Origin: Parapedobacter soli
GTDB lineage: Bacteria > Bacteroidota > Bacteroidia > Sphingobacteriales > Sphingobacteriaceae
NCBI RefSeq assembly: GCF_025460835.1
Contig: NZ_JAMXAY010000002.1
Span: 1 to 64,000 of the forward strand
Length of the DNA stretch: 64,000 nucleotides
Direction of reading: 5' to 3'
A program made the translations under genes and the position numbers. The notes beneath the pieces were generated by a model that saw only the letters and a list, made by a program, of their open reading frames with translations, had not been told where the DNA came from and did no database searches. How positions within the stretch are numbered: the first letter of the stretch is position 1; each line of letters opens with the position of its first letter. Positions 8,871-23,400 of this stretch are shown here, piece by piece.

Positions 8871-8933
8871 TTAGTTGGTTAAAAAAAGGGTTATTGTATC
8901 ATTCTTAAGGTTTACTCTGTTAGCAATATCGTT

Positions 8934-10163
8934 TTAACTTGTTACGGCCTTCGGCTCCTTCTGCAAGCTTGTTTTCATTAATTGATGCGGTTTGCTATTT
9001 TCGATAATTAGGCTTGCAGCCCCTAGTAACTCAGCTTCATACCCTAGGTCAGAGACCACCACGGTTGTGTGTTCTACCAGCTTTGGGATACAGAATTCGT
9101 TAATCGCGCGCTGCACCGGGGGAAGGAGTAACTTGCCGATGGCTGCGCCTCTGCCACTTAAAACAATGCGCTCGGGATTCATGATATGGATGAGGGTAGC
9201 GATACCTTTGCCCATCATGAAGGCCGCATCGGAGATCGCTGAGATGGCCAGCTGGTCGCCTTTGCGTGCCGCATCAATCAGATGGTCGCCTTCCGATTTG
9301 GTAGGTGTGGCAAAAAGCCGTTGAAGGCTTGAAGTGGTGCCTTCGGCTATCGCTCGCTTAGCGTTTTCGACGGCAACGAGCAATGATGCGTCTACTTCCA
9401 TGCAGCCGCGCTTGCCGCAGGAACAAAGTTTATTGCTATGCGAGAGGGGGATGTGGCTAAATTCGCCCGCATAACCATTATGACCCCTGAACAGGCTTCC
9501 GTTTACGATCATGCCCAATCCTATTCCCCAGCCCATATTAACAACCATGACATCCCGCATACCTTTTGCGGCCCCGAAGTGTAGCTCCGCCATGGCGATT
9601 GCACTGGAATCATTTTCTATATATACCGGTAAGCCCAGCCGCTGTGTCAAGCGGTCGCGCAGGCCGAGGTGGTGCTCATCATTTAGAAATGAAGCGTTTA
9701 TTCCTTTCTCCACATCAATGAATCCGGGCATCGCAACGCCTACGCCCACAATGTGCTCGCGCTTTATGTTTGCCGAAGAGGCATACCGGTCAATCGCCAC
9801 ACATAATTGTTGGAAAGCCGCTGCATTATCCTGTAACGGTAAAGAAAAAGCCGTTTCCGGGTGTACCGCTTCGTTCGCCAAGTTATAAACAACGATCCGT
9901 GTGATGAATTGGTCCATCGCTACAGCAATAAAATAGGCTTTGACTTTTTTATTGAGCCGATACGTGACCGCACGCCGCCCCCCGGTAGATGGGGCAAGGC
10001 CATGTTCCACTGCATACCCATCTTTGAGCAATCCGCTGATGATGCTGGTAATATTGGGTACACTTTTATTGGTGTACATGCTCAACTCAGCTACGGAAAG
10101 TGCCCCGTGATAGTAAAGCAGTTTGAAAACGGCTTTTTTTAATTGATCTTGGCGAAGTTTCAC
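8934..10163 (-). CDS. ROK family transcriptional regulator
   Basis: NagC/XylR-type repressor of the ROK family (409 aa). Residues about 8-70 form a winged helix-turn-helix (LSVAELSMYTNKSVPNITSI), followed by the ROK actin-like sugar-binding fold with the zinc site CSCGKRGCME near residue 245 and the preceding GHNGYAGEFSH motif. It is first in the same-strand run ROK-susC-susD and only 63 bp upstream of susC, so it is probably cotranscribed and controls this uptake locus. ROK repressors respond to sugars or sugar phosphates, which argues for a sugar-related ligand even though a peptidase-like gene is last in the run. Confidence 0.93.
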   Translation of the reverse strand: MKLRQDQLKKAVFKLLYYHGALSVAELSMYTNKSVPNITSIISGLLKDGYAVEHGLAPSTGGRRAVTYRLNKKVKAYFIAVAMDQFITRIVVYNLANEAVHPETAFSLPLQDNAAAFQQLCVAIDRYASSANIKREHIVGVGVAMPGFIDVEKGINASFLNDEHHLGLRDRLTQRLGLPVYIENDSSAIAMAELHFGAAKGMRDVMVVNMGWGIGLGMIVNGSLFRGHNGYAGEFSHIPLSHSNKLCSCGKRGCMEVDASLLVAVENAKRAIAEGTTSSLQRLFATPTKSEGDHLIDAARKGDQLAISAISDAAFMMGKGIATLIHIMNPERIVLSGRGAAIGKLLLPPVQRAINEFCIPKLVEHTTVVVSDLGYEAELLGAASLIIENSKPHQLMKTSLQKEPKAVTS

Positions 10164-10420
10164 TGTGCTTGTAACTGCTTATAATGTAATTGTTAATGCA
10201 AACTTAATAAAAAGCAAACCTTCTTTTTTAAAACTTATTAAAAAAAAACATTAAGATGTTGTATAGTGCTTATAATCAGTACAATTAATTTTTATATTGA
10301 TTGTGTGATTGTAACCACGGGTGTTTGCCGGTCATTTTCTCGTACGATTTACCTATTTTTACTCCCCTTAATATAATTTATAACCAAATCAAGGCTATTC
10401 AATTCGGAATCGGATTGCTT

Positions 10421-11182
10421 ATGAGGTATCAGGACAGTATACAGCGGTTTTCACAACGGGCTGGAAACTATGATAGGTTTCGGCCGGATTACCCGCAGGC
10501 ACTCCTCTCATTCCTCCATGAAACCGTACCCATTACCCCCGGTTTGGTTATCGCCGACATTGCGGCGGGCACGGGCATATTCACAGAGCAGATCGCTTCG
10601 TGGGGTAGCCGGGTGTATGTGATAGAGCCCAATCCCTATATGCGCAGCATGGCACGTAGGCGGTTGAGCGCCTGCGGACGGTGTGTATTCTTGGATGGAA
10701 CTGCCGAGGCCACGGGGTTGCCAGACCGCTCGGTCGACCTTTTTGTCTCCGCCCAAGCTTTCCATTGGTTCGATTTGGCTAAGACAAAAGCAGAATTCGA
10801 ACGGACATCGCGTAGTTCGGCCCATGTAGCTGTCGTTTGGAACCTGCGGAATACACGCAGTGCTTTTGAGTCTGGTTATGAGTTGTTTATCCGAAGTTAC
10901 GCGACGGACTACCTCCAAGTGAGCCAACGCAAGATGGATACGGCGGATGTCCGTTCCTTTTTCGCACCATCGGTACCGAAATATCGTGTTTTCGGCCACG
11001 TGGATTCGCTGACTTATGAGCAACTGCTTGGCCGTACGCTATCTTATTCGTTCCTTCCGGATGAGCTGTCGCCTGTGTTGCCTGAGATGACAGCAGCGTT
11101 GGAAGCGTTGTTTAAGGCGCACCAACGGGAGGGGAGGGTGCGGTTATCGTACAAGGCACGGTTGTTCGTGGGGCAGATTTGA
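10421..11182 (+). CDS. class I SAM-dependent methyltransferase
   Basis: Soluble methyltransferase of 253 aa. The SAM-binding motif I is clear (VIADIAAGTGIFTEQ, about residue 45), with motif II (YVIEPNPYM) and the later DLFVSAQAFHWFD segment typical of the UbiE/BioC-like methyltransferase_11 group. A longer frame opens at 10301, but the 40 extra residues do not look like protein and the N-terminus of related proteins begins near MRYQDSIQRFS, so the internal ATG was chosen. It lies 25 bp before the next gene on the same strand. The substrate is unknown. Confidence 0.85.
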   Translation: MRYQDSIQRFSQRAGNYDRFRPDYPQALLSFLHETVPITPGLVIADIAAGTGIFTEQIASWGSRVYVIEPNPYMRSMARRRLSACGRCVFLDGTAEATGLPDRSVDLFVSAQAFHWFDLAKTKAEFERTSRSSAHVAVVWNLRNTRSAFESGYELFIRSYATDYLQVSQRKMDTADVRSFFAPSVPKYRVFGHVDSLTYEQLLGRTLSYSFLPDELSPVLPEMTAALEALFKAHQREGRVRLSYKARLFVGQI

Positions 11183-11207
11183 ACGCTGAAATTATGCATT
11201 GTCAACT

Positions 11208-12419
11208 ATGAAAAAACGTTATTATTCGCTTGATGTGTTCCGTGGGGCTACGGTAGCGCTGATGATTTTAGTAAACAATCCGGGGAGCTGGGCGCATCTT
11301 TTTTCACCACTGGGCCACGCGGAGTGGCATGGGCTTACGCCCACGGACCTGGTGTTCCCGTTTTTTCTGTTTGCTGTGGGCAACGCGATGGCATTTGTGA
11401 TCCCGCGCCTAAGGGAAGCTGGCGACTCCGCATTTTGGCGGAAAGTGCTGAAACGTACGGCATTGATTTTCGGTATCGGACTGTTGCTCAATTGGTGGCC
11501 TTTCGTGCGTTGGGAAGGGGATGCCCTGGTGTTTAAACATTGGGTTGATCCTGATGATCCGGAGCGGGGTATCCGAATTTTCGGAGTGCTGCAGCGTATC
11601 GCGCTGGCTTACTGCTTCGCATCCATCATCGTTTATTACCTTAAGGAAAGGTGGGTTATCACCATTTCGGCGGTATTGCTATTAGGCTATTGGGTGCTTT
11701 GCGCGGTATTTGGCGGTACTGATCCGTATAGTTTGGAAGGTTGGTTTGGAACCGCCGTAGATAAGGCGGTGCTGGGAACGGCGCACCTGTATCGCGGAGA
11801 GGGTGTCCCGTTTGATCCGGAAGGGCTGATGAGTACCTTGCCCGCTATTGTGCAGGTAGTGGTTGGCTACCTCACGGGGCAGTATATCCGGGCGCAGGGT
11901 CAGGTAAGCTGGCTGTGGCCGCGGCTGCAGGCACCGGCCGAACCGCTCTATAAAATGATGTCGGGCTTGTTCGTGGTGGCAGCGCTCCTGTCGTTGCTGG
12001 GTCTGTTCTGGGGGTTGGAGTTCCCCATCAATAAGAAAATATGGACGAGTTCTTACGTGCTTTATACCAGTGGCCTCGCGTTGTTTACCATCGGCGTTGT
12101 TATCTGGTTTTTAGAGGTGCTGGGTGTACGGAACGGCCTCACACGCTTCTTTGATGTTTTTGGTAAGAATCCGCTGTTCATTTTTGTACTTAGCGGTGCA
12201 CTGCCACGCTTGCTGGGGTTAATCCGTATCCCAATGGGAGTTGATGAATCAGGCGGAGCGCAGTATACCACGCCGCTTCGTTGGTTTTATACCGAGGTGT
12301 GCGCGCATGTGCCGGGGCCACCGGAAGTTGGGTCGTTTTGTTATGCGTTGGCATTTCTTGCGCTTTGTTGGTGTATTTGCTACGTATTGGATAGGAAGGG
12401 GATTTATATTAAGGTATAA
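11208..12419 (+). CDS. NagX-like membrane protein (DUF5009 / HGSNAT-type acyltransferase family)
   Basis: Polytopic inner-membrane protein of 403 aa related to heparan-alpha-glucosaminide N-acetyltransferase and bacterial NagX. The N-terminus carries the family motif SLDVFRGATVALMILVNNPG, then HGLTPTDLVFPFFLF, followed by about ten membrane helices. These proteins are linked to amino-sugar metabolism; the acetyl-acceptor here is not known. The frame also has a TTG 9 bp upstream, but the ATG giving MKKRYYSLDVFRG matches family N-termini. No same-strand gene follows; an accessory region begins directly after it. Confidence 0.87.
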   Translation: MKKRYYSLDVFRGATVALMILVNNPGSWAHLFSPLGHAEWHGLTPTDLVFPFFLFAVGNAMAFVIPRLREAGDSAFWRKVLKRTALIFGIGLLLNWWPFVRWEGDALVFKHWVDPDDPERGIRIFGVLQRIALAYCFASIIVYYLKERWVITISAVLLLGYWVLCAVFGGTDPYSLEGWFGTAVDKAVLGTAHLYRGEGVPFDPEGLMSTLPAIVQVVVGYLTGQYIRAQGQVSWLWPRLQAPAEPLYKMMSGLFVVAALLSLLGLFWGLEFPINKKIWTSSYVLYTSGLALFTIGVVIWFLEVLGVRNGLTRFFDVFGKNPLFIFVLSGALPRLLGLIRIPMGVDESGGAQYTTPLRWFYTEVCAHVPGPPEVGSFCYALAFLALCWCICYVLDRKGIYIKV

Positions 12420-12895
12420 GCACTTTGGTCTTCGACCGATTCTCGGTCGTGTACCGGTGGTTTTCTTATCCTTACCAAATCTGCCCAGTACCCAAGGCGT
12501 ACCACGATGCTATGTCGCCTGTACACTCCTCGCTCCACTTTCTTGCGGGATTGGCTTCTGGATGGCTTCGGTATGGCTTCGGAGCTTGGCTTGGACTTCA
12601 ACTGGACTTGTATTGGACTTCTACTGGATTTGGTTTGGACTCCTATTGGTTCCGCCTGTCGAAGCGTAGTGCAAGGCAGCATAGAGAGCAAACTTACCTC
12701 CGAAGCCGACCCCTAGCTGACTCAAACGCTACCCCGCCCTGACCCATTCCCTATCTGTTGTCCGTCCAAATATGCCTTTCTCCCATTATATGGCCGCTTA
12801 ACCTTCGTTGAAATGCCTCTGGCGAGGCCGTTTACCAAGGCATATGCGGGACACCAGGGGGTAGGGCCCGAAGGAAGGTTAATGGAAGGTAGGAT
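12420..12895. other. intergenic region with ~12-bp periodic degenerate repeat
   Basis: No convincing gene. Between about 12540 and 12660 the sequence is built from variations of TTGGACTTC/TACTGGA and ATGGCTTCGG words recurring roughly every 12 bp, giving low-complexity open frames in several phases that are not protein-like. It marks the left edge of the accessory island. Confidence 0.5.
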
Positions 12896-13026
12896 TTGAG
12901 GTAAGAGAAACTCCTTATTTCAATAGTGGTGTGCCGGGGTTCTCCAACATGCGAAGAGGGGTAATGGGTTACGTCCTGGCCGAGGCGCTTGACGTGTCGA
13001 TTGCTGATTTTTTTGAGTTTACGTAA
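12895..13026 (+). pseudogene. 3' remnant of an XRE-type regulator gene
   Basis: The last codons read YVLAEALDVSIADFFEFT then stop, closely matching the C-terminus YVLAGALNVPIAEFFEFT of the intact XRE gene at 17745-17969. Upstream residues (SNMRRGVMG) look like a decayed version of SRMEKGRVNPS with a small deletion, and the frame closes about 44 codons before the end, so only a fragment is left. The final 18 bp of coding sequence and the next 15 bp are identical to the intact copy, making a 33-bp direct repeat (13009-13041 and 17952-17984) that brackets the whole guide-RNA island. This suggests a duplication or recombination event formed the island boundaries. Confidence 0.75.
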
Positions 13027-13034
13027 TACATAGG

Positions 13035-13099
13035 AGCAAGGACGCAAGGAGCAAAGACAAAGGAATTGCGAACACCTTTCAAATGGGGTATGTAAGCAC
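13035..13099 (-). CRISPR. outlying degenerate repeat with guide-like segment behind tracrRNA copy B
   Basis: On the minus strand a diverged copy of the array repeat (core CATTTGAAAGGTGTTCGC) lies about 50 nt after the end of the second tracrRNA copy. It is followed by about 30 nt of guide-like sequence made of CTTTGCTCCTTGCGTCC words. Together with the tracrRNA this has the order of a natural single-guide RNA. The guide part matches the dispersed GGAGCAAGGACGTAA-type repeats, for example those upstream of rpsO. Confidence 0.5.
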
Positions 13100-13146
13100 T
13101 TAATTTGATTTCGCGAACGAGGCTCGGTTATATAGTATCGGTTGTA

Positions 13147-13209
13147 AAATAAAAGTATTTAGTGAGTGTCAACCCGACCTCACCCTACGGCTGTACAAGC
13201 AGCCTCTAA
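13147..13209 (-). ncRNA. second tracrRNA copy (copy B)
   Basis: Nearly the same 60-nt sequence as the tracrRNA next to the Cas12f-like gene. It keeps hairpin 1 (GGCTG, loop CTTGTA, CAGCC) and hairpin 2 (GTGAGGTC, loop GGGTT, GACACTCAC). Compared with copy A the hairpin 2 stem changes from GCC/GGC to GTC/GAC, a compensatory pair swap that keeps the stem and argues that the RNA structure is under selection. The anti-repeat ATACTTTT is also kept. It begins right at the stop codon of the deleted PIN toxin gene, so it may be transcribed with the antitoxin. Confidence 0.7.
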
Positions 13210-13319
13210 AGTAATAAGAAGTCAGACGCGTTTAAGATTGGGATTTGTCGAAACGGATTCATAACTAGCAAATCCTTGTCGATCAGCGTATTGGTGTCAA
13301 ACACAAAAAACTTATTCAT
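13206..13319 (-). pseudogene. PIN-domain toxin with large internal deletion
   Basis: Short frame of 37 codons beginning MNKFFVFDTNTLI, the N-terminus of PIN-family toxins with its first catalytic Asp, joined directly to DKDLLVMNPFRQIPIL, the C-terminal segment that normally lies about 100 residues later in the family. The middle of the PIN domain, with the remaining acidic residues, is gone, so the toxin should be inactive. Its ATG overlaps the antitoxin stop by 8 bp, the usual arrangement of toxin-antitoxin operons. Confidence 0.75.
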
Positions 13320-13542
13320 CCGATTTTAGGAGTTCCTGTAATTCGGTTTCGTTGAAGCCCTTAGCTTTCGCTTCGGCAGTTGCCTTGTTTATGATCTCAA
13401 ATAGCCGTTCATTGGCCGGCTGGCCTAAGAAATCGACAAGCCAAGCGTTGATATAAAGCTCAGCGGTCCTCTTCCGCTCGATATCAGCTTTTTCAAATGC
13501 ATCGGCCAAATTTGGTGGTACATTAATAGCTATCGTTTTCAT
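13312..13542 (-). CDS. antitoxin-like protein of a broken PIN toxin-antitoxin pair
   Basis: Small acidic protein of 76 aa. The N-terminal MKTIAINVPPNLADAFEKA resembles the beta strand and helix of ribbon-helix-helix antitoxins, followed by helices ending LLKSDE that would wrap a toxin. The start chosen has a good AAGGAAG site 6 nt upstream (unusual in this genome); a GTG/ATG further upstream would add eight residues. The toxin partner downstream is deleted internally, so this is now an orphan antitoxin, possibly kept for autoregulation or for driving the tracrRNA copy behind it. Confidence 0.75.
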   Translation of the reverse strand: MKTIAINVPPNLADAFEKADIERKRTAELYINAWLVDFLGQPANERLFEIINKATAEAKAKGFNETELQELLKSDE

Positions 13543-13973
13543 TACAACTTCCTTAGTAATAATCAAATGTTTTTGATGATACCGCTAGTTTAACAATCAT
13601 CCACCGATCGGTTTCTAGAAGATTTTATGTTCGCATACCTTCAAAAAGTGGTTAGTAACACACATCACGGACATCCCTAAAAAAACATTCTTGTTGCATA
13701 TACCTTTCAATTTGATTCCCTCTTGCCCCGATTGATGATGAAAGGAACAAAGATTAAGGATTACGACCACCGTTCAAATGGGCCGACAATAGCGAAACGT
13801 GATGGTTAATAGACACCCAGCCATTGGATATACTTTTCAAATTGATTCCCTCCATACCTCGATTAATGATGAAAGGAACAAAGAATAAAGACTACGCATT
13901 TAGAAAGGCGTAAGTCAACCCTTCGCGCAAGCACATCGCATAAGACCTGTGCCAGTTCGAGGTCTGTAACACC

Positions 13974-14266
13974 TTTTGGTATCTCGGAATACAGTAAACT
14001 TCTGTTGCACATACCTTTCAAAATGGGGTTACCCACACCTTGTCCCAACTGGCCATCATGATAATGACTGTTGCACATACCTTTCAAAATGGGGTTACCC
14101 ACACCGTTCGGTGATGAAGCCAGCTATTGGTGATAGTTGCACATACCTTTCAAAATGGGGTTACCCACACCACCTACGTTCATCAGGTGAAAACAATGCT
14201 GTTGCACATACCTTTCAAAATGGGGTTACCCACACCGTCGTTGGGTTTTATGAGCGATGTTCTGAC
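13974..14266 (-). CRISPR. CRISPR core: four identical 36-bp repeats with 29-30-bp spacers
   Basis: Four perfect repeats at 14004-14039, 14070-14105, 14136-14171 and 14201-14236. Spacers between them are 30, 30 and 29 bp, with 30-bp spacers also at 13974-14003 and 14237-14266 bounded by degenerate repeats. Orientation was chosen as minus because the repeat then begins GGTGTGGGTAACCCC and ends GAAAGGTATGTGCAAC, and ending in ATGCAAC/GTGCAAC next to the spacer is the pattern of Cas12f crRNAs; it also makes the array codirectional with the Cas12f-like gene and its tracrRNA. By eye none of the five unique spacers matches elsewhere in the window. Confidence 0.93.
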
Positions 14267-14534
14267 GTTGCATATATCTTTCAGATTTTGTCGCTGGCTC
14301 GCCCTAAGTAATGATGAAAGGAACAAAGATTAAGGATTTGCACGATACATTTCAAAATGACTTCCTCTTGCCCTGAGCAATGATGAAAAGAGCAAAGAAC
14401 AAGGACAGTACCGCAAATAGACCTGAATCCCGCTGTATACACTTTCCAAAATGGGGTTAGCGACATCTGAAGCGGGGCTTTTTTATTAGCCTATGCTGTT
14501 GTATATACCTTTCAAAATTGATGCCCGCTTGCCC

Positions 14535-14889
14535 TGAACAATGATGAAAAGAGCAAAGATTAAGGATTTGCATGTTGCCATTTAAATCGGATTATCCTCA
14601 TTGAGCTTTTTCTGATGTCTAGTGTCTAGCGTCTGATGTATCAAAATAATATACCTTTCAAAATGGGGTTAGTGACACCAATATTGCAAAGAACCCGAAA
14701 GATTAAGGAGTTGCATATACCTTTCAAACTATCCCCCTCTGCCCCGAATAATGATGAAAGGAGCAAAGATTAAGGATTTGCATGTCGCCATTTAAATCGG
14801 ATTATCCGCATTGAGCTTTTTCTGATGTCTAGTGTCTAGCGTCTGATGTCTCAAAATAATATATCTTTCAAAATGGGGTTAGTAACACT
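14535..14889. repeat. tandem segmental duplication inside the array (2 x ~145 bp)
   Basis: The segment 14568-14679 recurs at 14778-14889 with 6 mismatches in 112 bp, and similarity continues about 30 bp to the left of each. Each copy holds two repeat-spacer units, including the 40-bp spacer with words such as GATGTCTAGTGTCTAGCG. A third partial copy of that spacer is at 15088-15128. This shows growth of the array by duplication rather than by new spacer capture. Confidence 0.8.
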
Positions 14890-15390
14890 AAAAATTACTG
14901 CAAAGACAAAGTTCAATCGTTGTATATGCCTTTCAAAATGGAGTAGGTAATACCTATTCGGGTTCGAGAAAACATCGTTCATCAGTTATATATACCTTCC
15001 AAAATTGATGCCCGCTTGCCCTGAACAATGATGAAAGGAGCAAGGACAAAGGGTTGCCGCCACTTTTCAAAAGGGGTTACCCACACCGAGCTTTTTCTGA
15101 TGTCTAGTGTCTGGCGTCTGTTGTCTCAAAATAATATACCTTTCAAGATCGATCCCTGCTTGCCCTGAGTAATGATGAAAGGAGCAAGGAATAAGAACAC
15201 TACCTGGGCCAGTTTCTGTATGCTCCGATTTACGATAGAACCGTTGCCTATACCAAATTCAATCATTGTCCCCGAAAAGACTGACGATTGTATATGCTTT
15301 TTTGCTCGTGGCTCCGCATTGTACACATTAATCACAACCGCAAGTTGACCATCGTATATACCCATTTTCAAACTCTCAGACTCTTGTGGC

Positions 15391-15463
15391 AAATAAAAAA
15401 GTATTCAGTGAGTGCCAATCCGGCCTCACCCTACGGCTGTACAAGCAGCCTCAAAATTTTCAA
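15391..15463 (-). ncRNA. tracrRNA of the Cas12f-like system (copy A)
   Basis: Starts about 50 bp after the stop of the Cas12f-like gene on the same strand. Visible parts in order: hairpin 1 GGCTG-CTTGTA-CAGCC (15450 to 15435), the same stem and CUUG loop start as the hairpin in known Cas12f tracrRNAs; hairpin 2 GTGAG-GCC-GGATT-GGC-A-CTCAC (15429 to 15408); then an anti-repeat ATACTTTTT (15404 to 15396). The anti-repeat pairs over 9 positions, two of them G-U, with GAAAGGTAT, the most conserved part of the array repeat. The sequence is conserved in a second copy at 13147-13209 with a compensatory change in hairpin 2. Transcript ends are not defined. Confidence 0.82.
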
Positions 15464-15509
15464 AGAACTATCTTAGTCGTAAGCCACCAGTCATCAGTCA
15501 ACTCGCCAC

Positions 15510-16604
15510 TTACTCCTCAATCACGTTAATCCCGGCCTTCTTCGCCTTGTAGGCAATCTTTTCCTTCAACCCATAATAACTCCAGTTGCGGAGCAGGAAC
15601 TCCTCCTCCTTGGCTACTTCCTCCTTTTGCTGCTGGTTAACCAATAGCAGGGTCCCCGCTTCGGACTTTATACACAGGTCGATCAGCCGGCGGCTGTACA
15701 GGTGCAGCCGGCTGTCCACATATTGCCTTTCTTTCGCATCCCAGTCGTCCAAGCTTTTCAGCTTACGCTGGCGGCCCTTACCGGATCGGTTGTACGTAGA
15801 CCCGCGTTGCAGGCGGTGCCGCGCAGCCTGTATGGCCAGCCGCCGGTGCAGGAATTCCTCCTTGTTGCCGATCTGGAACTGCGCCTTCCCCACGTTCACC
15901 ACAATGGGGTGCTCGATGGAGAGCGATGCCTCGGCAATGACCGAGTCCTTCAGCTGATGCGCGTCGCGCTCCATCTCAAAGGCCGCCAGCAGGTACAGCT
16001 TGCCCTTGTCGATTTTCAGCGAACTGGCGCAGAGTTTCAACTTACCCGCGATGTTGCGCTGTATCAGTACCCGCTTATCCGTTTTGTCTTTGCCGAGGTA
16101 GGTCTTGAACGGGATTTTGAATAACGTAAACCGGAATTCGCGGTGTTTCTCGTCGGCCACGAATTTCAGCGACTTGCCCGAAAAGGGCAGCGGAATATTG
16201 CGCTTGTAGTTGCGTAGCGATTTCTCCCCCTTCCAGTACGCGGTCCGCTCGGCATTGTATACACTGGTGAGTGAATTGTTCAGGTTGGAAAAGATGTCGG
16301 ACGGCATCTTACCCAGCAGCTTGCTCGACAGCACGCGGTAGGTGGTATTCATCCGTGAGGTATTGAGGATGCCGTCTTCATCCTTGGCACGGTCGGCCAG
16401 CTTCACCTTCACCTCGTCGGTAAAATAAATCAGGTCTTTTACCCGATCCTGCACATACAGGTTGGTGAAAATGAGGTTGGCGGCCTGAAAGGCCAGAAAC
16501 TGCCATTCATACAGCTGCTTGTAGTGGGCGTCTTTCTGCGCTTTGTCTTCGCAGTCCACATATACCTGTATTTTCCGTGTGAGGATGATGGTTTCCTTTT
16601 CCAT
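15510..16604 (-). CDS. dcas12f: nuclease-dead Cas12f/TnpB-like RNA-guided DNA-binding protein
   Basis: 364-aa protein. The N-terminal half (about 1-225) corresponds to the REC/wedge part; from about 226 it follows the RuvC fold of Cas12f and TnpB: RuvC-I HPIVVNVGKAQF, a basic bridge segment (RHRLQRGSTYNRSGKGRQRK, 263-282), KERQYVDSRLHLYSRRLIDL (291-310), and RuvC-II GTLLLVNQQQ. The catalytic Asp of RuvC-I is N237 and the Glu of RuvC-II is N323. The chain stops at GINVIEE, before the zinc ribbon and the RuvC-III Asp, so DNA cleavage should be impossible. It starts 3 nt after the sigma-like gene stop (coupled translation) and is followed by a tracrRNA and array. Inferred role: guide-directed DNA binding that positions the partner sigma factor. 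A TnpB-derived repressor is the alternative, but the array and tracrRNA favour Cas12f. Confidence 0.88.
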   Translation of the reverse strand: MEKETIILTRKIQVYVDCEDKAQKDAHYKQLYEWQFLAFQAANLIFTNLYVQDRVKDLIYFTDEVKVKLADRAKDEDGILNTSRMNTTYRVLSSKLLGKMPSDIFSNLNNSLTSVYNAERTAYWKGEKSLRNYKRNIPLPFSGKSLKFVADEKHREFRFTLFKIPFKTYLGKDKTDKRVLIQRNIAGKLKLCASSLKIDKGKLYLLAAFEMERDAHQLKDSVIAEASLSIEHPIVVNVGKAQFQIGNKEEFLHRRLAIQAARHRLQRGSTYNRSGKGRQRKLKSLDDWDAKERQYVDSRLHLYSRRLIDLCIKSEAGTLLLVNQQQKEEVAKEEEFLLRNWSYYGLKEKIAYKAKKAGINVIEE

Positions 16605-16607
16605 GGT

Positions 16608-17432
16608 TTAGGCCGATTGTTTCGCTTTGTTTTTATTAATGACGGCATAAGCTTGCACAAACAGCGACTTCACCCGTGTGTCGTCGAGTTGCAGCGCCGC
16701 GGCGATTTCCTCAAAGGAATACTGCAGGTCGTAGCGCATAGCCAGTACCTGCGCCTGCTCTTCAGTGAGCATGCCTTCGGCGATGAGCGGTTTGGTGCGT
16801 GTGGCGCTATCCAGCTTGGTCGTATCGGCGAGGGCAGCCCTCAGGTGGGCAATGCATTGCTCCACGCGCTGGGCAACCTCGTAATCCGAGATGCCGCCGA
16901 GGTGGTAGGCTATCCGGTCGTAGTTAAAGCTGTATCGCAGGCATAGCCGGAGAAATAGCTGCTGCTGGTCGGTCAGGTTGGGCAATAGCCGGTTGACCTG
17001 CTCCAGTTGCCGTTGTTTTTCCGCCTCCAGCTGTTCGAGGTATACGGCATCCTCCTCGGCTTCGTCCTCCAGTTCGTAACCCAGCATAAACTCTTGGAAA
17101 TCCTCGATGCCATCCAGCCGCAGCATGCTGCGGTGGAAACGGTTGAGACTCTTGCGGTAGTAGGCCATGCCCGCTTCGTGGAGTTGCTGGCTGAGGAACT
17201 CATGCAGATTGTCCGTGTCTCGGATAACTTCCCGCATGAGCCAAAGCCGGAGGAATGCTTCCTGGGCGATGATATTGGCCACCAGATCGTCTTTTACAAA
17301 ACGTTCGGCGCGATAGACATAGTGAGGGTAATATATGCGGTAAAAGTAGGCCAGTCCGGCCTCATCGCCGGCTTTGAAGCGGTGGAATGCTTCGGTGGTG
17401 TCTTTTCGGGTTTGGTAATTGGTTTTCGCCAT
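16608..17432 (-). CDS. ECF-like sigma factor partner of dCas12f
   Basis: 274-aa protein with an ECF sigma layout. Residues about 10-95 match a sigma-2 region (EAFHRFKAGDEAGLAYFYRI, then AQEAFLRLWLMREVI). An acidic linker (about 110-140, YELEDEAEEDAVYLEQLEAE) leads to a sigma-4-like helix-turn-helix (LLPNLTDQQQLFLRLCLRY then IAYHLGGISDYEVAQRV). A second, similar module follows (GMLTEEQAQVLAMRYDLQYS then EEIAAALQLDDTRVKSLFVQ), so the C-terminus is longer than a normal ECF factor (about 190 aa). No anti-sigma gene is adjacent. It is first in the operon with dcas12f, from a housekeeping-type promoter with a leader of about 230 nt. Inferred role: recruits RNA polymerase core to sites chosen by the guide RNA; which contacts replace promoter recognition is unknown. 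Confidence 0.82.
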   Translation of the reverse strand: MAKTNYQTRKDTTEAFHRFKAGDEAGLAYFYRIYYPHYVYRAERFVKDDLVANIIAQEAFLRLWLMREVIRDTDNLHEFLSQQLHEAGMAYYRKSLNRFHRSMLRLDGIEDFQEFMLGYELEDEAEEDAVYLEQLEAEKQRQLEQVNRLLPNLTDQQQLFLRLCLRYSFNYDRIAYHLGGISDYEVAQRVEQCIAHLRAALADTTKLDSATRTKPLIAEGMLTEEQAQVLAMRYDLQYSFEEIAAALQLDDTRVKSLFVQAYAVINKNKAKQSA

Positions 17433-17670
17433 AAAACAACGGGTTTGAGTCTGAAAATTTTAAAAAATATCTCTCCCCTTAGCAATGTCGAATCGCTACT
17501 ACGGGTCTAAGCTCCCGGTATTGCCGGGTGATTTGTCTTGGTAACGGGGTTGCCCTATTCAGGCGAACACTTTACATTGGCTAACAGGCTCCAGAAGTGC
17601 CGATGTGTTTTTGATGGATAGTCCGATTGTTTACTCATGTTGTGCTATAATCTGGTTCTCTTTGGTAAAA

Positions 17671-17702
17671 CAAAGATAGGAGTTTTATTTTTATTAAACA
17701 AA
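17671..17702 (-). promoter_or_regulatory. promoter of the sigma-dcas12f operon
   Basis: On the minus strand TTTG (17702-17699), exactly 20 nt, then TATCTTTG (17678-17671). This is a perfect match to the -33 TTTG / -7 TAnnTTTG promoter of the Bacteroidota primary sigma factor. Transcription would start near 17665, leaving a leader of about 230 nt before the sigma gene. Confidence 0.8.
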
Positions 17703-17710
17703 TATGTTTA
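17695..17710. promoter_or_regulatory. palindrome, candidate XRE operator
   Basis: TAAACA-AATA-TGTTTA, a perfect 6-bp inverted repeat. It covers the -33 element of the sigma-dcas12f promoter and sits about where transcription of the XRE gene would begin (TTTG at 17661, TATTTTTA at 17686 on the plus strand). A protein bound here could repress both directions. Binding by the adjacent XRE protein is inferred. Confidence 0.55.
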
Positions 17711-17744
17711 GCATGAATTTCAGACATTTCCCGTGTTTGGCTGA

Positions 17745-17969
17745 ATGGCAATAGATATTCAGGCATTCAAAATAAAGTTGGGCCAGCGTATCCGCGTGCT
17801 TCGGGAGCGTGGCGGGCTTACGCAGATGGAATTGGGGGCGCTGGTCGGCAAAGATTTCCAAGCTATCAGCCGCATGGAAAAGGGCCGGGTGAACCCATCG
17901 GCATACCAGCTATATGTGTTGGCCGGAGCACTCAACGTGCCGATAGCTGAGTTTTTTGAGTTTACGTAA
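17745..17969 (+). CDS. small XRE/Cro-family transcriptional regulator
   Basis: 74-aa single-domain helix-turn-helix protein: LGQRIRVLRERGGLTQMELG, then GKDFQAISRMEKGRVNPS, then the dimer-side helices ending FFEFT. It is divergent from the sigma-dcas12f operon and shares its control region with a palindrome there, so it is a good candidate to control that operon and itself. A decayed copy of its 3' end lies on the far side of the island at 12895-13026. There is no extra effector domain. Confidence 0.88.
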   Translation: MAIDIQAFKIKLGQRIRVLRERGGLTQMELGALVGKDFQAISRMEKGRVNPSAYQLYVLAGALNVPIAEFFEFT

Positions 17970-17976
17970 TACATAG

Positions 17977-18115
17977 GAGCAAGGGCGTAAGGAGCAAGGA
18001 ACAGGGACGCAAGGGCGTAAGGAACAAGGGCGTAAGGAACAAGGACGTAAGGAGCAAGGACGTAAGGAGCAAGGACGTAAGGAGCAAGGACGTAAGGACG
18101 TAAGGAGCAAGGAAC
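17977..18115. repeat. tandem GGAGCAAGGACGTAA-type repeats
   Basis: About nine copies of a roughly 15-bp unit (GGAGCAAGGACGTAA with variants such as GGAACAAGGGCGTAA) fill the gap between the XRE gene and the rpsO promoter. Related words occur at 13031-13063, in recurrent array spacers and at 45908-46009. Open frames across it are artefacts. Confidence 0.85.
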
Positions 18116-18120
18116 AAAAA

Positions 18121-18164
18121 AGGTACACCAATTTGCACTGTAATTAAAATTGGTGTACCTTTGC
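18121..18164 (+). promoter_or_regulatory. rpsO promoter inside a 14-bp perfect inverted repeat
   Basis: Arms AGGTACACCAATTT and AAATTGGTGTACCT flank a 12-nt loop. A promoter TTTG (18132-18135), 21 nt, TACCTTTG (18157-18164) uses sequence from both arms, so the inverted repeat spans the -33 and -7 elements. It may be an operator. The start point would lie about 35 nt before the rpsO ATG. Confidence 0.65.
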
Positions 18165-18205
18165 GGCCGTTAATTTATTATTTACGCTTTAATATTATTC
18201 AAGTA

Positions 18206-18484
18206 ATGTATTTAAGTAAAGAGTACAAGGCGGATATTTTCGCCGAATTTGCAGGAAATGCAACCAATACCGGTTCTGCCGAAGGACAGGTGGCTTTATT
18301 TACCAAGCGGATTGCCCACCTGACGGGGCATCTGAAATCAAACCGTAAAGATTTCGCGACCCAACGGTCTTTGCAGAAGCTGGTAGGTAAACGCCGTGCG
18401 TTGTTGAAATACCTTTTCCATAAAGATATCGAGCGCTACCGTGCCATCATCAAAGCCTTGGGACTGCGCGACATCATCAAATAG
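18206..18484 (+). CDS. rpsO: 30S ribosomal protein S15
   Basis: Small-subunit protein that binds 16S rRNA in the central domain. The 92-aa sequence has the S15 signature (GQVALFTKRIAHLTGHLKSN, then RSLQKLVGKRRALLKYL). The frame is open further upstream, but MYLSKEYKADIF matches S15 N-termini, and the extra upstream residues overlap the promoter. pnp follows 250 bp downstream, the order seen in many bacteria, but a strong terminator separates them. Confidence 0.96.
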   Translation: MYLSKEYKADIFAEFAGNATNTGSAEGQVALFTKRIAHLTGHLKSNRKDFATQRSLQKLVGKRRALLKYLFHKDIERYRAIIKALGLRDIIK

Positions 18485-18500
18485 TTCAGGTGAAATTTTC

Positions 18501-18536
18501 AAAAAGGCCATCCGCCGACTGGCGGATGGCCTTTTT
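18501..18536 (+). terminator. intrinsic terminator after rpsO
   Basis: Perfect 11-bp stem GGCCATCCGCC / GGCGGATGGCC with loop GACT, followed by TTTTT and preceded by AAAAA, so it could work in both directions. Confidence 0.93.
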
Positions 18537-18633
18537 GCGTTTTATTGGTGGCCATGCTATGCCGGGTCAGACCAATTTTTATTCCGATGGCAGGCGCTTG
18601 TGGATAAGCAGCGGTGTGTAAGGTGATTAATAC

Positions 18634-18664
18634 TTGCATATACACGGCTGTTTGTCTACTTTTG
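18634..18664 (+). promoter_or_regulatory. pnp promoter
   Basis: TTG (18634-18636, in ACTTGCATA), 20 nt, then TACTTTTG (18657-18664), fitting the Bacteroidota -33/-7 pattern. It lies between the rpsO terminator and the pnp start, giving a leader of about 65 nt. Confidence 0.65.
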
Positions 18665-18737
18665 CACGCAAAGTAAAAGTCTATACAATCATGGTGTGCC
18701 GCCTAAAGACGAATAGCACACCGAATCGAAACAACAA

Positions 18738-20876
18738 ATGAGTTACAACGAAATCAAAACAACAATCGATATCGGCGCGGGTCGCGAAATCGAGATTTCC
18801 ACCGGGAAAATGGCCAAGCAGGCAGATGGCTCGGTGGTGGTCAAGCAAGGGAAAACCATGCTGTTGGCCACGGTGGTTTCCGCACAGGAACCTAAACCGG
18901 GAGCAGACTTCCTGCCCCTTTCGGTAGATTATCAAGAAAAATATGCTTCCACGGGCCGTATCCCTGGCGGTTTTTTGCGCCGGGAAGCGCGGCTGTCCGA
19001 CTACGAGATCCTTATCTCCCGGTTGGTCGACCGGGCGTTGCGGCCGTTGTTCCCCGAGGACTACCACGCTGATACGCAGGTAATGATTACCCTGATATCC
19101 GCAGACAAAGACATCATGCCCGATGCGCTGGCTGGATTGGCGGCCTCGGCAGCCATAGCCGTATCCGATATCCCTTTCAACGGACCCATATCGGAAGTCC
19201 GTGTTGCTAAAATCGACGGCCAGCTGGTGATCAATCCGTTACTGAGCGAGCTCGAGAATGCGACACTGGAGTTTATCGTGGCAGGGTCTGCCAACGATAT
19301 CGTGATGGTGGAAGGCGAAGCCAAGGAAATTTCCGAATCGGAGATGGTGGAAGCCATCGAGTTTGCCCATCAGACCATCAAAAAACAAGTGCAGGCACAG
19401 GTGGAACTTGCCCAATTAGTCGGAAAGACGACCAAACGGGAGTATAGCCACGAGCCGACCAATCCGGAGCTGCGTGACCAGATTTTTGCAGCTACCTACG
19501 ACAAGGTGTATGCCGTTGCGAAATCTGCATCGGCTAAACACGAGCGTACCGAGCAGTTCAAGCAAATCGGCGATGCGTTCATAGAAGCGACGTTTGGCGA
19601 AGAAGAGCTTGATGACGATACCGCATTCCTGGTTAAGAAATATTACCATGATGTTCAGTATGAAGCTGTCCGCAACTTGATACTCAACGAAGGTATACGG
19701 CTTGACGGCCGCGATGTGCGCACGGTTCGCCCGATATGGAGCGAGGTGGATTACCTTCCTGCAGCCCATGGGTCGGCGGTCTTCACCCGTGGTGAAACCC
19801 AGTCGCTCACCTCGGTGACACTCGGGGCGAAAGACGACGAGCAGATGATTGACGGCGCATTCATCCACGGTTATAATAAGTTCCTGCTCCATTATAATTT
19901 CCCTGCATTCTCAACCGGTGAAGTACGACCGAATCGTGGACCGGGCCGCCGGGAAGTTGGCCACGGTAACCTCGCCATGCGCTCGTTGAAGCAGGTGCTG
20001 CCTACCGGCGATGACAATCCTTATACCATCCGTGTAGTCTCGGATATCCTGGAGTCGAACGGCTCGTCGTCCATGGCCACGGTCTGCGCGGGCGCATTGG
20101 CACTCATGGATGCGGGTGTGAAGATCAAAGCACCTGTGTCAGGTATCGCTATGGGGTTGATTACCGACGAGAAAAGTGGCAAATATGCGATATTGAGTGA
20201 TATCCTGGGTGATGAAGATCATTTGGGCGATATGGATTTTAAGGTGACCGGTACCGAAAAGGGAATAGTGGGTTGCCAGATGGACTTAAAAATCAATGGA
20301 CTGAAATGGGAAGTACTTACCCAGGCATTGGAGCAGGCAAAAGAAGCGCGGCTACATATCCTCAACGAGATGAAGAAGACGCTTGCCGAACCACGTGCTG
20401 ATTACAAGCCACATGCCCCACGTATTATTAGCTTCTCTATCGACAAGGAATTTATCGGTGCCGTGATCGGGCCGGGTGGCAAGATAATCCAGGAGATGCA
20501 ACGCGAAACCGGAGCCACCATCGCTATCGATGAGGTGGACAACAAAGGCGTGGTACAGGTGTTTGCAGATGACAAAGCGTCTATCGACGAAGCTGTACGC
20601 CGCATCAAGGCTATCGCTGCCAAACCCGAAGTGGGTGAAGTGTACGAAGGTAAAGTAAAATCTATCATGCCATTCGGTGCTTTCATCGAAATCATCCCTG
20701 GTAAGGACGGGTTGCTCCATATCTCCGAAATCGACTGGAAACGGTTCGAGAACATGGACGGTATCTTCAACGTCGGCGATATCGTGAAGGTGAAGTTGTT
20801 GGATATCGATAAACAAGGCAAGTTGAAGCTATCCCGCAAGGCCCTGATCCCAAGGCCGGAGCGGAATGAAGCGTAA
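18738..20876 (+). CDS. pnp: polyribonucleotide nucleotidyltransferase (PNPase)
   Basis: Phosphorolytic 3'-5' exoribonuclease of mRNA decay, forming a ring trimer. The 712-aa protein has the full domain order: first RNase PH domain (with [21 protein letters not shown]), helical linker, second RNase PH domain ([10 protein letters not shown]-like region, then [15 protein letters not shown] and [18 protein letters not shown]), KH domain ([17 protein letters not shown], about 578) and S1 domain ([20 protein letters not shown], about 635). Length and motifs match the family, and it should be functional. It has its own promoter and terminator. Confidence 0.98.
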
Positions 20877-20920
20877 TTTCTGGGCGTAAGTAGATACGTT
20901 CTTACGTATCTGATGGAAAA

Positions 20921-20953
20921 GCCGGACATCAGTCAACTGATGTCCGGCTTTTT
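20921..20953 (+). terminator. intrinsic terminator after pnp
   Basis: 13-bp perfect stem GCCGGACATCAGT / ACTGATGTCCGGC with a 2-nt loop spacer, followed by TTTTT. A smaller hairpin (AGATACG/CGTATCT) precedes it near 20892-20911. Confidence 0.93.
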
Positions 20954-21015
20954 ATATGCTTGTCGAGAGAGGCTGCGTGCTTAATGCTGGGCCATAAGAC
21001 GTTAGTTGAGGCGAG

Positions 21016-23253
21016 TTAGTTACCGGGCCACGTTTCCGGTTTCCGGCCGTATCTTTTGCTGGGTTTAGGCCCCATTTTGAAAACGAGTTCGCCACCCTTA
21101 AGTAACTCGTCATGGCGGATATAGGTTTTGTCGTACGGCTCTCCATTGAGTGTCGCTGACTGGATATAGGGGTTCTCTGCACCTTTGCCCAATGCACGGA
21201 TAATAAACGATTTGCCGTTTGGCAGGGAGAATGTTGTTTCTTCAGCAGTGGGGCTGCCGAAGACATATTCGCCACTGGCAGGATTTACCGGGTAAAGCCC
21301 GGCGATGCTCCACACCGCCCAAGCGCTCATCTGGCCGGCATCTTCGTTGCCCGCATAGCCATCGGGTCCATCGTGATACATGGAGTCTACGATTTGGCGT
21401 ACGCGCGCCTGTGTTTTCGGCGCTTCCCCGATGTAGCTATACATGTAGGCTATATGGTGGCTCGGCTCGTTCCCATGCGCGTATTGCCCTATAAAGCCAC
21501 TGGCATCGGGAGAAATATTATCGCCGTGCATTACCGAGGGGGCTGCGAATAGTTCATCCAGTTTCGCACTCAGTGCATTATTACCTCCGTATAACGCGGC
21601 TAGTCCGCTTATATCGTGGGGCACGAAGAAGGAATGCTGCCATGCATTGCCTTCTATGTATTGGCTTTTGTCGAAGTCGTGTTCCGACCAAAACGGGTCG
21701 AACGGCTCCACGAATTGCCCATCCGACAATTTCGCACGCATAAAACCCGTTTGCGGGTCGAATAGGTGGGTGTATGATTTTGCACGGTTCATAAAAGTGG
21801 CATAGTCTGCCGTTTTGCCGAGCTTTTTAGCCACTTGGGCAATGCACCAATCGTCGAAAGCATATTCCAATGTAATGGTTACACTCCCGCCCGCTTTGTC
21901 TTGCGGAAGGTAGCCGTGTTCGATGTAATCAGGCACTCCGCGTATGTCTTGATGTGCGCTTTTCAGCATTGCCTGGTATGCCCGTTCGGCATCCAGTCCG
22001 GGCCAGTTCTTCAGAATGGCGTCTGCCAAAACGGGAATGGCATGGTATCCGGTCATCGTGTTGGTTTCCCATGTGCTGAGGTCCCATACCGGGAGCAGGC
22101 CATTTTCGTCATGGAAGGCAAGCATGCTGTTGAGCATGTCGGTATAGCGGTCGGGCTGTGTGAGTGTGAAAAGCGGGTTCAACGCACGGAAGGTATCCCA
22201 CAGTGAAAACAGGGTGTATCGATTAGCGCGGCCTGGCAGGGTATGCGTATCGCCGTGGGCATTCTGGTATTCGCCATCCGCGTCCGAGTAAAGCGTGGGG
22301 GCTATTGCGGTATGGTAAAGCGCGGTATAGAAAATTCGCTTCAGAGACGTATCGGGCGACGTTATCCGGATTTTTTGCAGTTCGTGTTCCCATTGGTTCC
22401 GGGCCGACGTATGAATACGGTCAAAATCCCAGCCTTGGATTTCGCTGAGTGCGGCCAATGCCTTCTGATAGCTGGTGGTGGACAACGCCACTTTCAGCAT
22501 TATCGGAGCGCCGGTAATGTCTTCGAAGAGGAGCTGTGTGGCAACGCCGGTACCCCTGTCGTAAGTTTCAGCCATATCGGTCATATCCGACGCCGACTGG
22601 CCGTCGTAGAGGATTGCTCGCGTAATAGGGACAGACGTTCTGGCAGCGAAATAAATTCGTTGCACGCCGGCCCAACCGGAAGAAAAGCGATATCCAACCA
22701 ATGTACTGTCATTGAGGATGCTGGTATGGGTCTCTGTAGGTGTGTCCCAATTTTGATGGAATGCGAGGTCGAGGCGTATAGTAGGTATACTGCCTTGGGG
22801 GAAGGTATAGCGATGCAGGCCGCACCGTGCCGTAGCCGTGAGGTCGACGTGGATCCCGTTGTCTAGCGTCACCCCGTAGTATCCGGGGGAAGCCACCTCA
22901 TTAGCGTGTTTAAACGGGGTTTTGGGTGTATCCACAGTGTCTACGAGCGGTGCGGTCAGCGGCATAACCGAAATATCCAGCCAGTCGCCGATGCCCGTCC
23001 CGCTGAGGTGTGTGTGGCTGAACCCCGCAATAAGGCTGTCGCTGTAGTGATAGCCGCTGCACCAGTCCCAACCGTTCCGGCCATTATCGGGACTGAGTTG
23101 CACCATTCCGAAGGGTACCGTGGCGCCGGGGAAAGTATGCCCGTGGCCACCCGTGCCGATGAAGGGGTCAACATATGAAACCAGTGAATCTTGCGACCAA
23201 CAAAATGTATAAGATAGCGTGAGTGCTACAGAGATGCTTAAACGCGTTAGCAT
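21016..23253 (-). CDS. GH92 family alpha-mannosidase, secreted
   Basis: Calcium-dependent exo-acting alpha-mannosidase of family GH92 (745 aa). Signal peptide to about residue 21, then the N-terminal beta-sandwich opening YVDPFIGTGGHGHTFPGA and the (alpha/alpha)6 barrel. Family motifs are GWDWCSGYHYSD and GFSHTHLSG early, SLWDTFRALNPL in the middle, and NEPSHHIAYMYSY and GNEDAGQMSAWAVWS late; the last contains acidic residues of the active site. Function is trimming of mannose from N-glycans or mannans, probably in the periplasm. A LacI-type regulator is divergent 147 bp away and probably controls it. Confidence 0.95.
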   Translation of the reverse strand: MLTRLSISVALTLSYTFCWSQDSLVSYVDPFIGTGGHGHTFPGATVPFGMVQLSPDNGRNGWDWCSGYHYSDSLIAGFSHTHLSGTGIGDWLDISVMPLTAPLVDTVDTPKTPFKHANEVASPGYYGVTLDNGIHVDLTATARCGLHRYTFPQGSIPTIRLDLAFHQNWDTPTETHTSILNDSTLVGYRFSSGWAGVQRIYFAARTSVPITRAILYDGQSASDMTDMAETYDRGTGVATQLLFEDITGAPIMLKVALSTTSYQKALAALSEIQGWDFDRIHTSARNQWEHELQKIRITSPDTSLKRIFYTALYHTAIAPTLYSDADGEYQNAHGDTHTLPGRANRYTLFSLWDTFRALNPLFTLTQPDRYTDMLNSMLAFHDENGLLPVWDLSTWETNTMTGYHAIPVLADAILKNWPGLDAERAYQAMLKSAHQDIRGVPDYIEHGYLPQDKAGGSVTITLEYAFDDWCIAQVAKKLGKTADYATFMNRAKSYTHLFDPQTGFMRAKLSDGQFVEPFDPFWSEHDFDKSQYIEGNAWQHSFFVPHDISGLAALYGGNNALSAKLDELFAAPSVMHGDNISPDASGFIGQYAHGNEPSHHIAYMYSYIGEAPKTQARVRQIVDSMYHDGPDGYAGNEDAGQMSAWAVWSIAGLYPVNPASGEYVFGSPTAEETTFSLPNGKSFIIRALGKGAENPYIQSATLNGEPYDKTYIRHDELLKGGELVFKMGPKPSKRYGRKPETWPGN

Positions 23254-23400
23254 AGTTGTTTCAATAATGTCGCTATTATTTATACGGTAAAGCTAATTGA
23301 TTATTTCAGAAACACGAATTTTTAGTGCATTATTTTAGCCTATTTCATGAAAAAATACATAGGTTTGCACCTTTGCTAAACATTAAGCTTTTTTGCTAAA

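Follow-up and report, generated by a model that had tools for sequence, protein, structure and literature searches.

The closest described relative of the locus reported here is dCas12f-sigmaE, an RNA-guided transcription system published in 2025 reports, to which we take the PDB entries 9n9c, 9n9m, 9n9o and 9n9q to belong. The two genes of that system, for a nuclease-dead Cas12f (dCas12f) and a sigma factor, are reportedly adjacent, as they are in the locus below, and its targets are said to carry a 5' G flank. Type V-F CRISPR-Cas12f systems (CRISPR, clustered regularly interspaced short palindromic repeats) share with the locus the effector family, the trans-activating CRISPR RNA (tracrRNA) and the repeat/spacer anatomy. 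A third likeness is to TldR, a TnpB-derived, RNA-guided transcription factor with a dead RuvC domain, described as a repressor that regulates a surface structure, flagellin (PMC13418256). We analyzed a 64,000-nucleotide stretch of the Parapedobacter soli genome (contig NZ_JAMXAY010000002.1, positions 1 to 64,000; hereafter the window), which carries a sigma factor gene, a dCas12f gene, a tracrRNA and a CRISPR array. According to the comparisons below, this locus probably serves RNA-guided transcription by dCas12f and its sigma factor, aimed at operons for SusC/TlpA-type outer-membrane receptors. Its parts follow one another on the minus strand (ECF, extracytoplasmic function):

17671..17702, minus strand: promoter-like pair, TTTG (17702-17699) and TATCTTTG (17678-17671), 5' of the sigma gene, by sequence
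16608..17432, minus strand: ECF-type sigma factor, 274 aa, by Pfam, TIGR02937 and PDB matches
15510..16604, minus strand: nuclease-dead Cas12f, 364 aa, by PDB 9n9c_A, PADLOC and the RuvC alignment
15396..15452, minus strand: tracrRNA, two hairpins and then ATACTTTTTT, by a 53-sequence alignment with covariation
13628..15370 (about), minus strand: CRISPR array, repeat GGTGTGGGTAACCCCATTTTGAAAGGTATGTGCAAC in four perfect copies plus about 14 degenerate units, by sequence

All the parts that the initial annotation had placed on one strand in this order were found, with the Cas12f-like open reading frame (ORF) beginning 3 nt past the sigma stop. The promoter-like call is based on TTTG/TAnnTTTG, which we take to be the Bacteroidota promoter consensus. 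The sigma factor matched Pfam Sigma70_r4 (3.6e-9) and TIGR02937 (2.1e-14), and its residues 16-269 matched chain C, "RpoE," of PDB 9n9q (E 1e-35). Residues 2-362 of the 364 in the Cas12f-like protein matched PDB 9n9c_A, "Nuclease-deactivated Cas12f" (E 9.9e-129), an identical chain being present in 9n9q, and the PADLOC Cas12f model gave 7.6e-55; the best PDB matches were Cas12f chains, with TnpB chains ranking lower. Since both proteins match, near full length, chains solved together in 9n9q, the locus is by homology a member of the known dCas12f-sigma kind, as had been proposed. The protein had also been said to be unable to cut. In line with this, the RuvC-I Asp of 9nzo aligned with a Ser in the window protein, and this position was Ser, Ala or Thr in all 21 aligned members (the window and 20 relatives, L024 and L028 being left out). 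By eye, no RuvC-II Glu was seen in these 21 members and the chain stops ahead of RuvC-III; as judged by alignment, the catalytic residues have been lost. A dCas12f gene was present in 70 of 301 genomes of the family (E <= 1e-30), with 85-95% identity to the window protein in six named Parapedobacter loci and 63% in a seventh, SGR-10. In all but one of 22 named loci (21 of 22), the sigma gene neighbors dCas12f and shares its orientation; the exception is L028, where no sigma match was found.

The locus thus resembles dCas12f-sigmaE in the near full-length homology of both proteins, in the lost RuvC residues and in having a dedicated guide RNA. It appears to differ in that its guides lie in a tracrRNA and a multispacer array with 36-nt repeats, and in a YYR target flank rather than a fixed G at -1. 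Unlike Type V-F systems, it lacks the cutting residues (by alignment) and cas1, its spacers have self targets upstream of genes, and it has a sigma partner. The window protein differs from TldR in being closest to Cas12f chains and in its conserved sigma partner; to our knowledge, TldR has neither a sigma partner nor an array. What is new here is an array-bearing variant of the dCas12f-sigma kind with a coherent target class found by computation, together with a covarying tracrRNA common to relatives and multispacer arrays kept in Parapedobacter. No paper on dCas12f-sigma came up in our literature search, which reached neither preprints nor the majority of subscription journals, so absence from print is not implied.

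The initial annotation had proposed searching all spacers against the whole genome for sites upstream of genes. The window array was compared with its own genome (G000; assembly of 5.17 Mb in 177 contigs) and the genus, and the arrays of three relatives, L015, L014 and L017, with nine genus genomes, for about 78 unit-like places in all (17 in the window, 33 in L015, 13 in L014 and 15 in L017), a total that includes some false units. For L013, L024 and L016, the comparison covered 23 fetched regions and, for the guide region of L016, also its own genome. A target was a match outside arrays at E <= 0.05, sorted by hand; matches in repeats or other arrays, in dispersed intergenic repeats, in gene inserts or array flanks, or overlapping a spacer by fewer than 20 letters were dropped, as were the dispersed-repeat stretches of the window array query at about 316-344, 380-418, 655-690, 945-976 and 1106-1136. 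Nineteen spacers had such a target, and 15 of these targets lay upstream of SusC/TlpA-type receptor operons (S4, S7, S9 and S12 of the window; L014_6, 8 and 9; L015_1, 4, 7, 13, 18, 24, 30 and 33). All 15 protospacers were on the operon strand. Five were inside the receptor leader, 59-385 bp from the start codon (S7, S9, L014_6, L015_4 and L015_30), nine were at 0.7-2.7 kb and L015_33 at about 8.2 kb, so that 14 of the 15 were within 3 kb. As read from fetched stretches, the target operons begin with a TlpA-like or SusC-type gene, usually with a common signal sequence (MKRxLRxGxxYALxK...) and often with a divergent helix-turn-helix (HTH)-type gene. In a profile scan of ten target-locus proteins, nine matched models for receptors, thioredoxin-like proteins or HTH proteins, with two of the thioredoxin-like matches scoring under the curated cutoff, and the accessory gene at L097 was a GNAT acetyltransferase; genes beyond these ten proteins were assigned by eye.

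Matches in the spacer's own genome were found for S4, S9, S12, L014_8, L015_4, L015_30 (E 0.052), L017_9 and L017_7 (25/30). The four window spacers with receptor-upstream targets (S4, S7, S9 and S12, named win_3, win_6, win_8 and win_11 in the search) were as follows:

14955..14984, minus strand: spacer S4; 28/30 match in its own genome (G000 C144), 798 bp ahead of the ATG of the common signal sequence at a TlpA/SusC locus
14680..14709, minus strand: spacer S7; target (27/30, E 0.003) in a sister species (G087 C25), 322 bp ahead of a SusC-type gene
14468..14497, minus strand: spacer S9; own-genome target (26/30, E 0.005) 227 bp upstream at C158
14237..14266, minus strand: spacer S12; 29/30 match in its own genome, 1775 bp ahead of the C109 locus

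The proposed search therefore yielded, for S4, S9 and S12, own-genome targets upstream of receptor-type loci. C144 (S4) and C109 (S12) are less clean cases; at C144, the signal-sequence ORF ends ahead of the TlpA-like gene. The first letters of S7 resemble a dispersed repeat of the window genome. S9, whose sequence is terminator-like and somewhat simple, also matched C144 at 23/30 in two tandem copies, 331 and 232 bp upstream (E 0.19). The S12 target lies in an apparent IS3 transposase remnant, and the C109 locus has the common signal sequence, a metalloprotease-like first gene and then a TlpA-like gene (by eye). Candidate targets within the window were rejected: the first 20 letters of 16 spacers reached 16/20 at best outside the array region, and an 18/20 match of S3 at 13063 is a dispersed repeat. 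G000 C158, C144, C109, C163, C136 and C97 (L003, L002, L116, L090, L091 and L092) form a locus family with one signal sequence and a related upstream leader, some members having a small ORF, inverted repeats and a divergent HTH gene. N-joined duplicated stretches at C144, C158 and C109 may point to recombination or shuffling, or to an assembly join.

The flanks of the targets were then compared for 18 spacers, L017_0 being left out. The 5' flank read YYR, with a pyrimidine at -3 in 18/18 and at -2 in 16/18, and a purine at -1 in 14/18 (A in 9, G in 5, T in 3 and C in 1). For the strand, 109 spacer-like 30-mers from seven loci were matched against 23 upstream regions. At 24/30 or better, 23 of the 109 (21 without identical duplicates) matched on the operon strand and none on the opposite strand, and 0 of 545 shuffles matched on either; at 22/30 or better, there were 24 matches on the operon strand, 1 on the opposite strand and 1 from a shuffled copy. 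Because most of these regions were fetched owing to a spacer match, the match count is partly circular, which the strand is not. Since the YYR motif was picked with the data in view, a check on held-out spacers is important: six of the 23 that had played no part in selecting any region (L013_3, L015_5, L015_12, L015_26, L017_7 and L024_4) all matched on the operon strand, and all had YY at -3/-2. YYR does not explain the strand bias, because it is nearly balanced between the strands of these regions (8524 versus 7788). The earlier proposal that guides place the sigma factor at chosen sites is thus supported by the 9n9q homology, the sigma-dCas12f adjacency, the 15 of 19 spacers and these six further ones, all at the level of sequence comparison.

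The same targets could reflect ordinary CRISPR memory against mobile DNA, namely insertion sequences and defense-type islands by receptor genes, with dCas12f-sigma as a relic or a binding block and the receptor location reflecting sites of mobile DNA. S12 and S4 were first thought to be plain anti-transposon spacers, and the IS3 remnant at the S12 target fits this explanation, as do the targets of L015_7 and L015_33 in PDDEXK-type genes listed among defense candidates, the many matches in sister species and a YYR flank that resembles protospacer-adjacent motif (PAM)-selected acquisition. However, memory is not expected to give a strand bias of 15/15 with a further 6/6 held out, and targets also lie within the receptor leader itself. 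On these spacer comparisons, which covered the window's own genome and genus genomes, we consider this explanation unlikely.

The tracrRNA called in the initial annotation was borne out by an alignment of 53 sequences, comprising both window copies and 51 copies from relatives, with a two-hairpin structure specified by us. In this structure, 93.1% of the cells were paired and 8 of 14 pairs showed changes on both sides; 0 of 500 shuffles scored as high on any measure, and RNAalifold predicted 12 of the 14 pairs. In the first hairpin, two of the pairs failed, one in 15 and the other in 23 sequences. A search of Rfam gave no match at the gathering score. Besides the window, other Parapedobacter carry this RNA; in Sphingobacterium it lies 5' of sigma, and in Pedobacter it directly follows dCas12f. 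By eye, its ATACTTTTTT is able to pair with GAAAGGTAT of the repeat. By the covariation among these 53 sequences, a guide RNA scaffold is present. Two further features belong to it:

13150..13206, minus strand: second tracrRNA copy at the far array end, 92% identical to the first
15458..15468, minus strand: boxA-like GTTCTTTGAAA, 16 nt ahead of the tracrRNA, by sequence match

Of the 17 tracrRNA copies tested, 11, among them the dCas12f-proximal ones, are preceded within 200 nt by the boxA-like element (GTTCTTTGAAA with at most one change, or GCTCTTTAAAA), usually at 16-17 nt and in two cases at 150 nt; the six copies without it are second or third copies. We presume that GTTCTTTGAAA is a boxA. 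BoxA shields long arrays from termination; L016 and L041, which have no clear array, carry the element too.

Three Pedobacter loci (L029, L030 and L033) have a single short RNA in which tracrRNA, handle and guide are joined, and the 21-nt guide is identical in all three. In P. foliorum, this guide matched CGTTATGGGCTCTATTG at two sites, each at 16/17 with a 5' G (E 4.4 for either); one site lies about 320 bp ahead of a SusC gene, on the strand of that gene, and the other is in a similar leader with no receptor identified downstream. A GGGCTGCTGT guide pattern was also tried and rejected, its extra site not being upstream of a receptor. When 48 guide regions were compared with the 23 receptor upstream regions, common 14-mers numbered 14 on the same strand and 1 on the opposite strand, and 15-mers 8 and 0, with several rows sharing one guide. 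Some of the common words cross genera, as between the S. wenxiniae (L018) guide and a P. defluvii leader. The array-less relatives therefore appear to point weakly the same way. By eye, L016 at 8268-8540, L018 at 4648 and L041 at 1391 seemingly hold two consecutive guides, each after a short RCAAY handle, and these double guides resemble two neighboring sites in receptor leaders.

The observed gene order, protein homology, loss of catalytic residues, tracrRNA covariation, and location, strand and flank of the targets are best explained by the following proposed scheme. One operon would make the sigma factor and dCas12f, with the tracrRNA and array following. The 3' part of the repeat (GAAAGGTAT) would pair with the tracrRNA to give a dCas12f guide complex, which would bind DNA beside a 5' YYR flank without cutting. 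The sigma factor would ride on this complex and recruit RNA polymerase, and transcription, starting downstream of the R-loop, would run in the protospacer strand's direction. Because the targets are upstream regions of SusC/TlpA-type operons, the system would turn on chosen receptor loci. From homology and target logic, we infer assembly, the R-loop, polymerase recruitment and receptor gene activation, and hence the guided-transcription step itself. For the five targets less than 400 bp from the start, the guided-transcription reading is direct. From the distant targets, transcription would cross divergent regulator genes antisense; either the regulator would be silenced with read-on into the operon, or cassettes may have moved. 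Several targets are inside divergent HTH-type genes that a guided polymerase would read antisense, which would also suit RNA-guided repression, with dCas12f bound upstream blocking regulator genes or receptor-leader transcription in a TldR-like manner and the sigma factor as an accessory. Pure repression, however, needs no sigma factor, while one adjoins dCas12f in 21 of 22 named loci and is part of the solved set, and pure repression offers no reason for the strand bias; we regard it as very unlikely.

Several results weigh against guided transcription of receptor operons. Four of the 19 spacers match elsewhere: L015_22 in metE (28/30); L017_4 in an HTH gene downstream of a nearby SusC/SusD pair and hence on the wrong side; L017_9 in its own genome (29/30), in a gene homologous to one beside the L097 receptor, where no receptor was seen; and L017_0 weakly in recX (E 0.014), probably by chance, although it was retained among the 19. 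No SusC was found in the fetched stretch of the C109 operon of S12, and for most of the roughly 78 units the searched genomes gave no target. Ten of the 15 receptor-upstream targets are 0.7-8.2 kb upstream, often within divergent regulator or accessory genes, which is farther than a simple promoter needs, and sister species account for most of the strong matches. Only 5 of 18 flanks have G at -1, unlike the G reportedly found in the characterized system; the two weak Pedobacter single-guide sites have G. Among the array-less relatives, the Pedobacter single-guide matches ahead of a receptor lack significance by themselves (E 4.4), and the guide has a better match (17/17, E 0.2) inside an unrelated gene of P. 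panaciterrae. Common 13-mers numbered 17 on the same strand versus 9 on the opposite strand, 2 of the 14 same-strand 14-mers came from regions that the guide itself had served to select, and neither the L016 nor the L018 guide region gave a clear match in its own genome.

The array itself has 36-nt repeats and spacers mostly of 29-30 nt, with many degenerate units on a 66-nt beat; the four identical repeats are at 14236-14201, 14171-14136, 14105-14070 and 14039-14004. It was present as the initial annotation had said, but its region reaches beyond the proposed end at 13628, to the second tracrRNA copy (13206-13150) and a repeat remnant near 13100-13065. It is interrupted by dispersed intergenic repeats and a small gene:

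13312..13566, minus strand: small antitoxin-like gene (by eye) within the array region, 83% identical in DNA to an insert of the P. koreensis array

No Pfam family above the cutoff was found for this gene, which is followed at 13180-13320 by a shortened PIN-toxin-like frame (by eye). Repeat decay is mostly 5': positions 16-36 are 85% conserved in the window and 85-92% across four arrays, versus 58% and 58-73%, respectively, for positions 1-15, the figures for the 3' half being inflated because units were picked by that part. The initial description of a long, decayed array holds for the 5' halves of the repeats but needs changing, because the repeats retain their 3' handle half, good targets exist for four window spacers and arrays persist in five sister species. 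Arrays were found downstream of dCas12f in the window, L013, L014, L015, L017 and L024, with traces only in L016, and none of this type was found there in 16 named loci (Sphingobacterium, Pedobacter and others). Several arrays are split by inserts and second tracrRNA copies. In L024 (Parapedobacter indicus), the dCas12f frame is broken into two overlapping pieces, while sigma, tracrRNA and array persist. A dead system, with the array as junk carried along with a sigma factor acting alone, would suit the degenerate 5' halves, the invading dispersed repeats, the broken P. indicus frame and the many spacers with no target found, but is very unlikely, given that both window ORFs are intact, that five sister species keep an open dCas12f frame, that handle and tracrRNA are conserved and that spacer content differs between species' arrays. 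The best reading of the array is a guide bank rather than plain decay.

As the initial annotation had stated, no interference or adaptation gene accompanies the locus: inspection of the ORFs listed for 8000-24000 of the window showed no further cas gene, and the genome's only Cas1 match (C90:130020) is outside the window, about 115 kb off on the same contig. Its neighbors were read as Cas9 and Cas2, with an array unit of 76 nt, versus 66 nt at the dCas12f locus, and a different repeat. This region (L128, G000 C90 120500-140000) holds an apparent Cas9 of 1435 aa, Cas1, Cas2 and an array of about 100 repeats. A Cas1 match was found in five of nine genus genomes.

These data list candidate natural targets of RNA-guided transcription, with one rule for the flank and one for the strand, and would tie such transcription to SusC/TlpA receptors, the uptake doors of Bacteroidota. 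Parapedobacter, with an array, and Pedobacter, with a fused single guide, may represent two states of one system, so that the path from a CRISPR array to a fixed regulatory guide can be studied. They also raise the question of whether CRISPR adaptation can supply new regulatory targets. We tentatively suggest, as a possibility that is less likely than not, that CRISPR memory has been turned into adaptive gene regulation, in which PAM-selected spacers would be kept only when pointing toward a receptor gene, and a growing guide bank would let dCas12f-sigma switch on a shuffling repertoire of outer-membrane receptor loci, including loci arriving from relatives.

Two minor observations concern the surroundings of the locus. 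Directly downstream of dCas12f, L019 and L028 carry a 63-nt tandem repeat (TTTGCAAAAACTCCTTAAGGGTATTTACTTTCCCC...), which is unlike a CRISPR array because whole units repeat. In the window, the end of an XRE gene (17745-17969, plus strand) and flanking AGGAGCAAGGACGTA repeats recur at about 13000 (12995-13048 versus 17745-18110), as if the locus lay within a duplication.

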